Assembly: GCA_019309115.1 (NCBI GenBank)
Contig: JAFDGW010000013.1
Coordinates: forward strand, 1-64,000
DNA: 64,000 nucleotides
Direction: 5' to 3'
Source: Deltaproteobacteria bacterium
GTDB taxonomy: Bacteria > Desulfobacterota > Syntrophobacteria > Syntrophobacterales > Thermodesulforhabdaceae
Shown: one piece after another, positions 22,736-41,269 of the stretch
Position numbering within the stretch: the first letter of the stretch is position 1
How the letters are laid out: every line of letters starts with the position of its first letter
Translations under genes and position numbers: made by a program
The notes under the pieces: generated by a model
What the model was told of the DNA's origin: nothing
The model's database searches: none
Seen by the model: only the letters and a program-made list of their open reading frames with translations

Positions 22736-23290
22736 GTGAAACGATTGTTCCCCTGTATCATGATGTTGATATGCGTGTTTGTTATCTCATGCAGTCCTGC
22801 TTATTATACGTTACCATCTTACCCACAGCCTCCTGAGATTCAGAAATCTCAACAGGGTGATCGGGCCTTGTCCCGGAAATCAAAGATACCAAACTTGAAT
22901 GCTTCCAAACCGGAAAGAGCTCAAACGGAGCGACCACAACAGGAACTAATACCGGAATCTTCATCTCCTCAGAATGTGGCTTCTGCGGAATTGGTTAATC
23001 AGGCTAGAGAACTTGCCCTGGCAGGTAGGACGGAAGAAGCTCTCAGGAGACTGGAACGGGCAGTCGAATTAAACGCATACAATGGAGATGCCTTTTACGA
23101 AATGGCACGGTGTTGGGAAATTAGAGGAGACCACGAAAGGGCTTTGACTTTCATAAACAGGGCGATTGCGATATTCAGGGGCAAGCCTTCTAAATTGAGA
23201 CCAGCGTATCTCTTCAAAGCGGCTATATTAGAGAAGCTGGGCAGAATAAGCGAGGCTGCGGAAATAAGGGAAATGGCCAGGAAGCTATGA
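22736..23290 (+). CDS. TPR-containing lipoprotein
   Basis: This 184-aa protein begins with a lipoprotein signal (hydrophobic core, then VISC with Cys near residue 19). A Pro/Gln/Ser-rich linker follows to about residue 75, and then tetratricopeptide repeats (ALAGRTEEALRRLERAVEL, HERALTFINRAIAIF). The start is GTG at 22736, 2 nt after the PBP stop, with AGGAGG at good spacing. By position it may be an envelope lipoprotein that assists the PBP, by analogy with LpoB; there is no sequence similarity to prove this. Confidence 0.85.
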   Translation: MKRLFPCIMMLICVFVISCSPAYYTLPSYPQPPEIQKSQQGDRALSRKSKIPNLNASKPERAQTERPQQELIPESSSPQNVASAELVNQARELALAGRTEEALRRLERAVELNAYNGDAFYEMARCWEIRGDHERALTFINRAIAIFRGKPSKLRPAYLFKAAILEKLGRISEAAEIREMARKL

Positions 23291-24393
23291 AAAGTCCTTC
23301 TGAAACCCCACGAGATTACAGGGCATTCCTGCTAGTCTTACTCTTTGCAAGTCTTTATTTTTCATACCTGATCTTTAAACCTTTTATTCATGCCCTTCTG
23401 CTGGCTTTTCTCGTAGGCTCTCTTTGCGCACCACTCGCCCAGTCGTTGAAGAAGCCTTTTGGTGGCCGCAGCAACCTTTCCGCTCTTTTGGTGGTGATGA
23501 TCATTTCTGTTGTGATTGTCGTACCTATGTTGTTCCTTTTATCAGCCCTTGTCACTCAAGCCTTCGATACCATAACTAAAATTAACGAATGGATAAAGTC
23601 AGGGCAATTTCATAAACTACTCTCACACCCCAAAATTCAGTTTTTGCTAACCCACTTCCAGAAATGGACAACACACCTCGGCTTCAGCGGCAGAATATCT
23701 CTGGATGCTAAGCTAACAGACCCGTTGATAAAAGCAACTCAATACGTCGGTCAGTTTATAGTATCTCACGGCTCGGCGTTGCTTGGTAACATGTTGAATC
23801 TGGGTCTTCAATTTTTCGTCTTCGTTTTTGTCCTCTTTTACGTGGTCCGTGATTATCCAACCATAATCCGCCGTATCAAAGACATTTCGCCGTTGAGAGA
23901 AGAACAGGAAGATCAGATTCTCGAAAGAATCCGTTCTGTAGCAAAATCTGCTCTCTTGGGCAGCTTGGCCACATCTATAGCCCAAGGAGCCGCTGGTGCA
24001 GTTGGGCTGGCGATAGTTGGCATTCCGGCGCTTTTTTGGGGTACGATTATGGCGTTCGCTTCCCTTATTCCCATTGTCGGCACTGCTCTTGTTTGGGTTC
24101 CGTCAGTTATTTATCTTCTGTTGGTAGGTAAATGGAAAAGCGCAATCTTTTTTCTGTTATGGTCAGTGATTGTCGTAGGTTCTATAGACAACTTCCTGAG
24201 GCCTCTGTTTATGAGAGGTGCCGGTCAGATGTCTTCTTTTTTTGTATTTCTTTCGATAATGGGAGGAGTTCAGTATTTCGGCTTCTTAGGAGTGATTTAC
24301 GGTCCTCTGGTGCTGGCCTGTGGGCTGGTGATGCTCTACATATATGAAGCAGAGTACGGAGATGCTAAACCTAAAAATGACAGAAGGAATTAA
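23287..24393 (+). CDS. AI-2E family transporter (PerM/YdiK-like permease)
   Basis: This 368-aa protein has about eight hydrophobic segments. Conserved family blocks are visible in the second half: the helix near FVFVFVLFYVVRDYPTIIRRI, GIPALFWGTIMAFASLIPIVGTALVW and the GGVQYFGFLGVIYGPLVLA stretch. Members export small molecules or are of unknown function; some act as sodium-proton antiporters. The ATG overlaps the lipoprotein stop (ATGA), so it is co-translated. The gap to the convergent GGDEF gene is short and has no clear terminator. Confidence 0.87.
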   Translation: MKSPSETPRDYRAFLLVLLFASLYFSYLIFKPFIHALLLAFLVGSLCAPLAQSLKKPFGGRSNLSALLVVMIISVVIVVPMLFLLSALVTQAFDTITKINEWIKSGQFHKLLSHPKIQFLLTHFQKWTTHLGFSGRISLDAKLTDPLIKATQYVGQFIVSHGSALLGNMLNLGLQFFVFVFVLFYVVRDYPTIIRRIKDISPLREEQEDQILERIRSVAKSALLGSLATSIAQGAAGAVGLAIVGIPALFWGTIMAFASLIPIVGTALVWVPSVIYLLLVGKWKSAIFFLLWSVIVVGSIDNFLRPLFMRGAGQMSSFFVFLSIMGGVQYFGFLGVIYGPLVLACGLVMLYIYEAEYGDAKPKNDRRN

Positions 24394-24447
24394 ATTTAGC
24401 ATAGCTGCCTGATTCTCAGTAAGAAAGCCAAGGCTGTAGGTGGAAAT

Positions 24448-25545
24448 CTATTGAATTTTGCTAACCGCGAGGGGGGGGGGGGGGGGGGGAGAGTGGGTGG
24501 AGCGCTCGTTGTTTACTGTACCATGAGTTTTTTCCTCCACTTTTGTATCAGAAACAACCTCAAATACTATGCGCCCTTTTCGGGATACCGCCTTTACGAC
24601 GCGATTTCGCCCTTGTTTTTTAGCTTCATAGAGCGCTTCGTCCGCTAATTTTATAACCTCATCTGGGCTTTTCCCGCCATGAGGATAGGCCGCCACTCCG
24701 GCAGAAAATGTTATTCCTTCTATATACCTTCCCTCAATCGGTATAAGAGTTCTCGAAAAAGACCGCCTTAAGGAATCAGCTCGAATCGCTGCAACATCAA
24801 CATCAGCCCCTGGAAGGATTATGAGAAACTCTTCACCCCCATACCTGAAAGGAATGTCACTTGCGCGAATACTTTTCTTAAGAAACGTTCCTAGATATTG
24901 AAGCAAGTAATCACCCGCAACATGTCCGTAATGATCGTTAAACTGTTTAAACCGGTCAATGTCAAACATGATAACACTCAAAGGACGGTTTTCTCTAGTT
25001 GCTCTGTGCCATTCTCGATTTATAGTTTCCTGCATGAAGCGACGGTTAAAAAGACCTGTCAATGGATCTCGAATAGACATATCCTTGAGCTGATCACGGA
25101 GACTCACGTTGCTCAGAGCGCTACCAACCATGAGAGAAACAATGGACACAACGCTACTCAAAAATTTTTCCTGCCTGCGGTATGATGAATTTAATGCTCC
25201 TTGAAAATGGCGAAACCTAACGGTTAACACTCCAAAATGTTTCGAACCGGCTATCACTGGAGAGCATACTCCAAAATAACCCTGACCAACGAGTTTCTTC
25301 AAGTAAGAACAAAGACATTCCGACTGAAAACCACACTGGACAACTTTACCAGTCCTCAATGCCCAGCACTCTTGGGCATTGACAAACTGACACTCATCTA
25401 GGCTCTCACCCCACATTGCCACAGGTTTCAATGTCCTGACGTCTTCCAACAACCGCATTAATGTTCCATCCGCTTCCTGAAATATTCTAGGAGCAAAGAT
25501 TTGAAATCCCCGGAAAATCTCTTCCTCTGCATTGGTGGCCATCAA
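24448..25545 (-). CDS. GAF-GGDEF diguanylate cyclase ORF (C-terminal piece of broken gene)
   Basis: This 365-aa frame is open from the ATG at 25545. Residues 5-165 are GAF-like and contain an unusual cysteine group (CQFVNAQECWAL then CGFQSECLC). Residues 175-335 are a GGDEF domain with RYGGEEF and an intact I-site RASD five residues before it, so the cyclase could still work if translated alone. The start is probably internal to the original gene, since the natural upstream frame is lost. The C-terminal tail crosses a 19-base C run (gene sense) that codes for consecutive prolines, so its length would vary with slippage. Confidence 0.7.
   Translation of the reverse strand: MMATNAEEEIFRGFQIFAPRIFQEADGTLMRLLEDVRTLKPVAMWGESLDECQFVNAQECWALRTGKVVQCGFQSECLCSYLKKLVGQGYFGVCSPVIAGSKHFGVLTVRFRHFQGALNSSYRRQEKFLSSVVSIVSLMVGSALSNVSLRDQLKDMSIRDPLTGLFNRRFMQETINREWHRATRENRPLSVIMFDIDRFKQFNDHYGHVAGDYLLQYLGTFLKKSIRASDIPFRYGGEEFLIILPGADVDVAAIRADSLRRSFSRTLIPIEGRYIEGITFSAGVAAYPHGGKSPDEVIKLADEALYEAKKQGRNRVVKAVSRKGRIVFEVVSDTKVEEKTHGTVNNERSTHSPPPPPPLAVSKIQ
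24471..24489. repeat. G19 homopolymer tract
   Basis: Nineteen consecutive G's on the plus strand lie inside the last codons of the GGDEF gene (C19 in the coding sense, encoding six prolines). Such tracts slip readily during replication. Here a change of one base would replace only the last few residues and move the stop codon, leaving the GGDEF domain intact. Confidence 0.95.
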
Positions 25546-25869
25546 AGTGAGATTGAGCTGATTGATTTTTCTTCCAATTCCTGTACCTGAGCGATGAGCT
25601 GCTTTCTAGAAGCAACAAGGTTTTCTTCAAGCTCTCTTTGCTCCGTCGTATCGATACCAGTACCAATAACGTATTCTGGCTTTCCATCGCCTCCTAAAAC
25701 AACCGCATTGGACCACAAGATAAGACGCTTATCCCCGTCTTTCGTTATCCAGTAACCTTCATAGGCATTGGGTAGAGCTTGGTTAATCGAGTCAGAAAAC
25801 ACTCCTTTAGCTAAATCCTTTTGGTCATCTGGAATCAGGAAATCAAATATCCTTCTGCCAACTACTTCA

Positions 25870-26784
25870 TCAAAGGAATAACCAGTTACTTCCTGACAAG
25901 CCTTTTAATATGGTTTTTAGGAAAGTTTGTTCATGTTTGAGACGTTTTTCAAGCTCTTTTCTCTTTTCTACATCTCTCAATGAGATAACTATGCGATTTT
26001 CAGAGTCCTCAGCATGGCGGACATTACCCCCTGCCGCTTCAAAATAGTGCCAGCGCTCTTTTGCAACTTTCAAGCGCACCTCAACGCGCACAGATTCACG
26101 CCCATCCTGGCCTCCAAAATTCCCCTCAGCAAGAGCATTGAACATTCTCTTGACTCTGACAACATCGTCTGGATGCACCCAATCTATCCAGTGTGTTCCA
26201 ATTACGTCGTCAACATTAAAATCACTTAAACGTTCCACAGCAGGCGATATGAAATGTATCCTCCCGGAAGAATCTACAATTACCAATATGTCCGAAATAG
26301 TATTGATAAGAATTTTGTATAGTTCCTGACTCTCGGTGAGGTGCTTTTGCGCTTTCTTCAGATCTGTTATGACCTTTTCAAGCTGACAATTACGTAAGAA
26401 ATCCTGTGTCACGTCCTGAATGATAGTAAGAGTCCCACCAATACCAGATTCCTGAATGATTGGGAAAATCTTTACATTCTGAATCATGTAGTCAATGCCT
26501 TCATGTTCTACAACCGAAGGAAATAGGAAAAAATTCTTGTTTACATGGTGGGAAATAACCACATGATTACCTTGAAGGGCAACTGAATAATACGATAGCT
26601 TATTGTTTCTCTTTAACTCGGGAAAAACTTCTTCTATACTTCGACCGGCTACATCTTCGAGGCAGTGGCCGGTAAAAGTTTCGATCCATCTATTGACGAA
26701 GATTATCTTCAGGTGCTCGTTTGTGGCAATAACTCCCTGATCAACATAATCACATATAGTTGCGTCTAATACAGCTCTTTCCAT
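25870..26784 (-). CDS. PAS-PAS protein ORF (N-terminal piece of broken sensor cyclase)
   Basis: This 304-aa frame contains a PAS domain at about 10-130 and a second at about 145-285 (ISDILVIVDSSGRIHFISPAVERLSDF, ISLRDVEKRKELE). It ends a few residues after LKTIL, where a third PAS domain should begin. The ATG at 26784 has AAGGA upstream. Without the GGDEF output it is probably a non-functional remnant, or at most a soluble sensor fragment. Confidence 0.6.
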   Translation of the reverse strand: MERAVLDATICDYVDQGVIATNEHLKIIFVNRWIETFTGHCLEDVAGRSIEEVFPELKRNNKLSYYSVALQGNHVVISHHVNKNFFLFPSVVEHEGIDYMIQNVKIFPIIQESGIGGTLTIIQDVTQDFLRNCQLEKVITDLKKAQKHLTESQELYKILINTISDILVIVDSSGRIHFISPAVERLSDFNVDDVIGTHWIDWVHPDDVVRVKRMFNALAEGNFGGQDGRESVRVEVRLKVAKERWHYFEAAGGNVRHAEDSENRIVISLRDVEKRKELEKRLKHEQTFLKTILKGLSGSNWLFL

Positions 26785-33455: not shown

Positions 33456-33646
33456 GGGAAACGGTGTGAAAATGCTCCAGCGGAATAACACGGCAAAATA
33501 TTCTTGCCTACCGATTTTTTCAACATGTCTTCAGCACATCCTTGACGTTGCTTTTTTTTTCACATAAGAGATTTATTTGAGTTGTATTGTCTCTCCAGGA
33601 CTTGCTTTCTAAATGTAGCCTAAACCAGCAAAAATTGGGGGATTTC

Positions 33647-40162: not shown

Positions 40163-41269
40163 ATGAAAGTACGGATCGAAAAGAACAGACTAGCCAGGTA
40201 CCTATCACTTTTGCAGACAGTCACGGAGAGAAAAACTCTTCCATATCTTTCGCATATTTTGCTTAAAGCAATAGATGGCAAAATTTACATGGCGGCAACT
40301 GATCTTGATATTGCACTTGAGGTTCAAGACGATGTGGAAGTAATCGACGAAGGAGCTATGACTGCACCCGCAAGAAGGTTACTTGATGTGGTAAAAGAGT
40401 TCCCGGAAGAAGAAATTGAAATCAAAGCCAAGAATGGATCGTTTCTTTGTGTTACTACTGGCAATGCAAATTTTGAGCTTCCCAGTTTTGATCCTGAAGA
40501 CTTTCCTCTCCCCCCCCCTTCGGATGATTTAGAGTTTCAGACGTGTAATAGAGATGTGTTTAGGAATGCGTTGCGAAAAACGTCATACGCTGTACCTTCG
40601 GTGGAAAGTCCTCTAGGGGGACCAGGGCTTTATTGGTCTTTTGAAGGAGGCAACATTCACCGGTTCGTTGGTTGTGAACTGAATAGACTTGCTTCGTATA
40701 TGATAGTGGCCGACGAATTAGGTATGTCACAGTTGCCATTTAACGTGATGATTCCTCAAAAAGGCGTAAAAGAACTGCTGAAATTCACGGACGAGAACGA
40801 GTACATTGAGTTGTGTCTTACCGAATTGGGACTTTATGCCAGAAGTAACAAAATGAGGTTATGGGTTAAACTTTTAGAAGATTATTTTGGCTTTTACGAT
40901 GATCTAGTTTTACCCAAAAGATCTTATGGGGTAAATATACCATCTCAAGATTTCAAAAGAGCCTTGAAGCGCATGGCTATATTTACGGATCAGACCTGGA
41001 AGTATTTAAAAATGCACTTTGAAGATAATTCCTTGTTTCTGGAGGCAGGGAACCCCGAAATAGGAATGGGTAGAGAGAAGATTAATGTGGAATATGACCT
41101 TAAACCATACATAGCGTCTTTTGACCTAAGATACGTTATGGACGCAGTAGGCGTGATTCAAGGTGAATGGTTGCGTTTTGAATGGGACGAAGAAGCTCCG
41201 GGTGGGATTTTTCTGGATCTGGAAGACGAAGCATATCTTGCTCTGATAATGCCGTTAGTTGTGCCATAA
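40163..41269 (+). CDS. dnaN: DNA polymerase III beta subunit (sliding clamp)
   Basis: This 368-aa protein forms the ring that holds the replicase on DNA. It shows the three-fold clamp layout, starting MKVRIEKNRLARYLSLLQTV with LPYLSHILLKA, MAATDLDIALEV and APARRLLDVVKEFP, and ends in the clamp C-terminus LALIMPLVVP. GGAGG precedes the ATG. It is unusual that neither dnaA nor recF is adjacent: the neighbours are fhs (divergent) and an mvhD gene. Confidence 0.95.
   Translation: MKVRIEKNRLARYLSLLQTVTERKTLPYLSHILLKAIDGKIYMAATDLDIALEVQDDVEVIDEGAMTAPARRLLDVVKEFPEEEIEIKAKNGSFLCVTTGNANFELPSFDPEDFPLPPPSDDLEFQTCNRDVFRNALRKTSYAVPSVESPLGGPGLYWSFEGGNIHRFVGCELNRLASYMIVADELGMSQLPFNVMIPQKGVKELLKFTDENEYIELCLTELGLYARSNKMRLWVKLLEDYFGFYDDLVLPKRSYGVNIPSQDFKRALKRMAIFTDQTWKYLKMHFEDNSLFLEAGNPEIGMGREKINVEYDLKPYIASFDLRYVMDAVGVIQGEWLRFEWDEEAPGGIFLDLEDEAYLALIMPLVVP

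Follow-up and report, generated by a model that had tools for sequence, protein, structure and literature searches.

Phase variation through poly-G and poly-C runs at homopolymeric contingency loci is reportedly the theme of the phasome papers on Campylobacter and Neisseria. Slippage at runs of this kind has long been known to act as a switch, as stated in the available part of one account (PMC3711429) and reportedly also in a second (PMC6321876). Tracts of poly(C) and poly(G) longer than 2 bases are generally under-represented in prokaryotic genes according to the available part of the survey by Orsi et al. (2010; PMC2831843), which lays the stress on poly(A) and poly(T) at the 5' ends of genes. 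A looser parallel comes from Pseudomonas aeruginosa, where intergenic homopolymer indels are tied to the tuning of c-di-GMP (PMC8115180, likewise from the available part).

The locus described herein resembles homopolymeric contingency loci in having a long, pure G:C run within a reading frame, which would be expected to slip. It differs from them in three respects: slippage of the run is unable to turn the enzyme domain on or off, frame damage has already broken the gene, and the homologous loci inspected are without the tract. Long homopolymers within reading frames are not switches by themselves; where the frame outcomes fall needs to be checked.

Position and rarity of the G19 run

A pure run of 19 G (G19) occupies positions 24471–24489 of the + strand of the window, that is, of the whole stretch of 64,000 nucleotides that was analyzed; the exact length is uncertain, as the assembly is a draft. 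The run is located where two genes converge, between their 3' ends. On one side is a gene for an AI-2E family transporter (PerM-like; 23287–24393, + strand; PF01594, 1e-46), and G19 starts 78 bases past its stop codon, on the sense strand of the transporter. On the other side is a GGDEF gene on the − strand, and on its coding strand the run is a C19. The preliminary description had considered the run exceptional in the window and had it encode prolines near the end of the GGDEF protein. Both statements were confirmed. The run contributes six proline codons to the tail of the minus-strand ORF 24448–25545, 23 bases short of the end of the frame, and the next-longest homopolymers in the window are a C9 (40510–40518), within a coding sequence that presumably corresponds to a DNA polymerase sliding clamp, which it resembles, and a T9 (33552–33560). 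None of the remaining G runs in the window exceeds 6 bases.

The chance expectation was obtained from a first-order Markov model, with the composition taken from the window and applied to the 2,512,959-base genome. In this model, only 2.6e-5 G or C runs of at least 19 bases are expected per genome (2.51 Mb). For runs of at least 9 bases, the expectation is 16.7 versus four present genome-wide, namely a G11 (contig C9, from 33001), a G10 (contig C66, from 2547), G19 itself, and the C9 run that starts at position 40510 of the window. Long G/C runs are rarer in this genome than the model predicts, and G19 is an outlier: as at a contingency locus, the repeat is pure and far above the background. 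The scarcity of runs of at least 9 bases, and the occurrence of the homopolymer in a coding gene, are in line with the survey of Orsi et al. (2010; PMC2831843). Unlike the tracts emphasized in the available part of that survey, G19 is a poly(G)/poly(C) run, is far longer, and is found at the 3' end of the gene.

Damage to the GGDEF gene

The GGDEF gene had also been described as damaged, and comparison with relatives bore this out, revealing three frames and two lesions. An intact homologue of 808 aa was found in another genome of the same family (locus L007, genome G002). The window gene aligns to residues 17–304, 324–437, and 444–782 of this protein in three pieces, which are in different frames. 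Residues 305–323 and 438–443 of the relative (19 and 6 residues, respectively) have no counterpart in the window gene, and the frame changes at each of these sites, whose counterparts in another relative (L010) are 20 and 5 residues long. In place of the intact sensor-to-GGDEF frame of the relatives, the window therefore contains three fragments, all of them on the − strand.

The N-terminal fragment (25870–26784; 304 aa) carries PAS domains, matched in two stretches (Pfam PAS, 2e-15). The middle fragment (25542–25802), in a different frame, corresponds to the third PAS region of the relative and had no Pfam match when searched alone. The C-terminal fragment (24448–25545; 365 aa), composed of a sensor-like region and a GGDEF domain, ends in PPPPPPLAVSKIQ. 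GGDEF is the sole Pfam domain in this ORF (residues 158–315, 1.4e-49), with a score of 168 bits versus 162 in the intact relative. As would be expected for a diguanylate cyclase, the domain retains an active-site motif, RYGGEEF, with RASD (RxxD) just upstream; we take RYGGEEF/GGEEF and RxxD to be motifs of the GGDEF domain. The TGA that terminates the middle fragment (25544–25542) shares its A with an ATG (25542–25540) in the frame of the C-terminal fragment, and the GGDEF fragment might still be translated from this overlapping ATG. The window gene is similar to PAS-containing GGDEF diguanylate cyclases in having the domain order of L007 and in keeping GGEEF and RxxD, and unlike them in being divided among three frames, with 19 + 6 residues of the relative unmatched.

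The tail behind the GGDEF domain, where the run is located, is poorly conserved in an alignment of three sequences. No G/C run of at least 9 bases was present at the homologous loci L007–L010, all of which are from other genera, and a tract kept in relatives while its length varies, as at a contingency locus, was accordingly not seen among them.

Slippage outcomes and origin of the run

The consequences of slippage were simulated in silico for tract lengths of 8 to 29 (22 lengths). The GGDEF domain was untouched at 22 of the 22 lengths, the ORF ranged from 357 to 385 aa over the whole series, and no off state was found among these lengths. What changed was the tail behind the prolines, which is set by the tract length modulo 3 and reads RG, LAVSKIQ, or SRLAKFNRFPPTALAFLLRIRQLC (2, 7, or 24 residues). 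The protein has 361, 365, or 382 aa at 20, 19, or 18 G, respectively, and the earlier expectation that slippage would change the tail, and possibly the length, of the protein was right. According to the simulated reading frames, a change of one unit does not switch the gene, and a contingency switch at G19 is unsupported, because no simulated length reaches the GGDEF domain or gives an off state.

Local slippage growth in the weakly constrained tail of a decaying gene is the simplest account of the run. A short run would have been extended to a long G:C homopolymer by replication slippage, at a site between converging gene ends where the non-conserved 3' tail of the decaying PAS-PAS-PAS-GGDEF gene would tolerate it. 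Slippage probably alters the length of the run often, and each slip would exchange only the terminal residues (2, 7, or 24) that follow the prolines. Because slips would change nothing but the tail, selection would neither remove the run nor exploit it as a switch, and the run would be highly mutable and nearly neutral. We consider it fairly probable that G19 grew by slippage and is tolerated, presumably as an unstable run, in a 3' end that is not essential to the decaying gene; the run would probably be a mutable scar, and not a genetic on/off switch. The preliminary description had left the choice between a contingency tract and a decaying locus. The decaying locus gains from the two lesions, the three frames, and the lack of any G/C run of at least 9 bases at L007–L010, while the contingency tract loses from the 22 simulated lengths without an off state. 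As it stands, G19 cleanly illustrates how a run that looks hypermutable can lie in a dead-end tail. Against decay, the GGDEF domain is intact in the C-terminal fragment, which extends over 365 codons and has an ATG in its frame, so that the fragment may still be made and its tail may matter. Also, a single near-neutral run of 19 bases is odd in a genome that is poor in G/C runs.

Two-colour sequencing chemistry yields G runs at the ends of reads, and the run, or its length, could be an artefact of this chemistry or of a false join, an explanation that we disfavour as unlikely. The T-to-G substitution artefacts of two-colour sequencing described in the available part of PMC13218037 are loosely relevant here. 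In a survey of 394 genomes of the phylum (at least 85% complete), tracts of at least 15 G were present in 69, and of the 30 tract loci opened (L149–L178), 17 were no more than ~120 bases from the end of a contig, frequently in smears that mix G and C, and 13 were internal. G19, however, is located 24 kb inside a 112-kb contig and is neither at a contig end nor part of a mixed smear, and the 300 bases on either side of it are unremarkable, with a GC content of 0.43 and 0.46 and G/C runs of at most 3 bases. The four G/C runs of at least 9 bases in this assembly all keep clear of contig ends, by 2.5 kb in the closest case. A false join would be consistent with the arrangement in genomes G002 and G001, where the homologues of the transporter and GGDEF genes are on separate contigs, the latter with other neighbours, and where the stretches fetched share no further gene order spanning the tract, which is in an unconserved stretch between the two genes. 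The transporter, for its part, retains its upstream neighbour gene in 4 of the 4 relatives examined. The joining of reads that end in G would nevertheless be expected to produce G and C on opposite sides of the join, and not a single pure G run.

Signalling genes, tail variation, and RNA folding

All three tracts of at least 10 bases in this genome are in or beside signalling genes, which counts against the account of G19 by slippage and decay. In a crude model with an assumed gene count, 75–120 assumed signalling genes, and a category chosen post hoc, the chance of finding three of three such tracts at signalling genes is 2e-4 to 9e-4, and that of finding at least three of the four tracts of at least 9 bases there is 9e-4 to 3.5e-3. 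This distribution would fit a family in which long G:C runs serve as contingency switches for signalling genes, and not for surface antigens, with G19 as a third and partly decayed case; we consider such a use quite unlikely. If true, slippage would switch sensors and second-messenger enzymes instead of surface structures, a proposal that is testable.

The G11 (L145, 5002–5012; genome G000, contig C9, 33001–33011) immediately follows an ATG, and a second ATG in the same frame comes just behind the run; by eye, the run is in the Shine-Dalgarno position for this second ATG. The gene is downstream of one for a methyl-accepting chemotaxis protein and encodes a hybrid histidine kinase of 965 aa with the Pfam domains SBP_bac_3, PAS, HATPase_c, and receiver. 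Among the five lengths from 9 to 13, the frame of the first ATG gives 965 aa only at G11, and 11–36 aa at 9, 10, 12, and 13. A start at the second in-frame ATG could make the kinase independent of the length of G11. The G10 (L021, 1501–1510; genome G000, contig C66, 2547–2556) is between the converging ends of the genes for an HD-domain response regulator and an ABC transporter ATPase.

In a sister genus (genome G003), a G16, C16 on the coding strand (L043, 1501–1516; contig C1, 549545–549560), is inside a FIST/histidine-kinase gene and is the sole tract of at least 9 bases in that genome. Pfam matches above the cut-off were FIST and FIST_C before the run and HATPase_c after it; those to PAS_4 and HisKA, also after the run, fell below the cut-offs. 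The run length modulo 3 sets the frame, which comprises 800 aa at a length of 15 and 801 at 18 and is truncated to 483 at 16, 549 at 14, and 550 at 17, and the C16 of G003 is a better candidate for phase variation than G19. No close relative of the FIST part was found in the 20 other genomes searched (best match, 27% identity); a match of any kind to this part was observed in 8 of the 21 genomes, G003 included. A word search of the literature returned no paper joining a poly-G tract, phase variation, slipped-strand mispairing, and a histidine kinase, and published cases may exist.

It is very unlikely, in our estimation, that G19 is a contingency tract through which slippage picks among three C-terminal tails and thereby tunes how stable or active the surviving GGDEF fragment is. 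The tract is indeed within the ORF, its three frames yield distinct tails, and the GGDEF core is intact. Nevertheless, an off state is absent over the whole range of lengths 8 to 29, the upstream part of the gene is broken, the tract is missing from L007–L010, and L007 and L010 show no conservation in their tails.

We also regard as highly improbable a role for G19 as an RNA element, in which a four-layer G-quadruplex in the 3' UTR of the transporter would affect stability or termination between the converging genes. The energy predicted by ViennaRNA for the sense strand was −82.8 kcal/mol with G-quadruplexes on versus −34.6 kcal/mol with them off, and that for the complementary strand was −18.2 kcal/mol with or without them; this result carries little weight, since any G19 is expected to fold as a G-quadruplex in the model. 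The G10 on contig C66 is also between converging gene ends, with the sense strand of the + gene carrying the G, and G19 is followed by weak terminator-like hairpins (24491–24510, + strand) in a sequence scan. Such matches are, however, near chance (two in 24200–24800 vs. a shuffled mean of 0.6, sd 0.9), and the homologous loci inspected are without the tract. A scan for sigma-70-type promoters around G19 gave zero matches. Loss of mismatch repair as the cause of G19 appears unsupported, and a general repair defect would not be needed, because domains of both MutS (MutS_I, in an open frame of 935 codons; present in 40 of the 40 genomes searched, including this one) and MutL (DNA_mis_repair, in an open frame of 571 codons; present in 5 of the 5 genomes of the family) were detected in this genome.

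For the internal tracts of the phylum survey, Pfam was run on 20 neighbouring ORFs at 12 of the 13 loci, L171 being without a 90-aa ORF near the tract; two ORFs each at L160 and L163, and one each at L154, L162, L169, and L175, were left out. A sensor-type gene was present at 2 of the 12 loci (L157 and L163), and the chance of at least 2 of 13 is 0.19–0.37 in a crude model. Outside the family, this count is about that expected by chance and does not support long G tracts as general markers of signalling genes. Judged by eye, no signalling-like genes were found at the G/C tracts of 13–14 bases at L036–L039 and L046. The long G/C runs near contig ends in assemblies of the phylum are likely a sequencing artefact and constitute a trap for homopolymer surveys.
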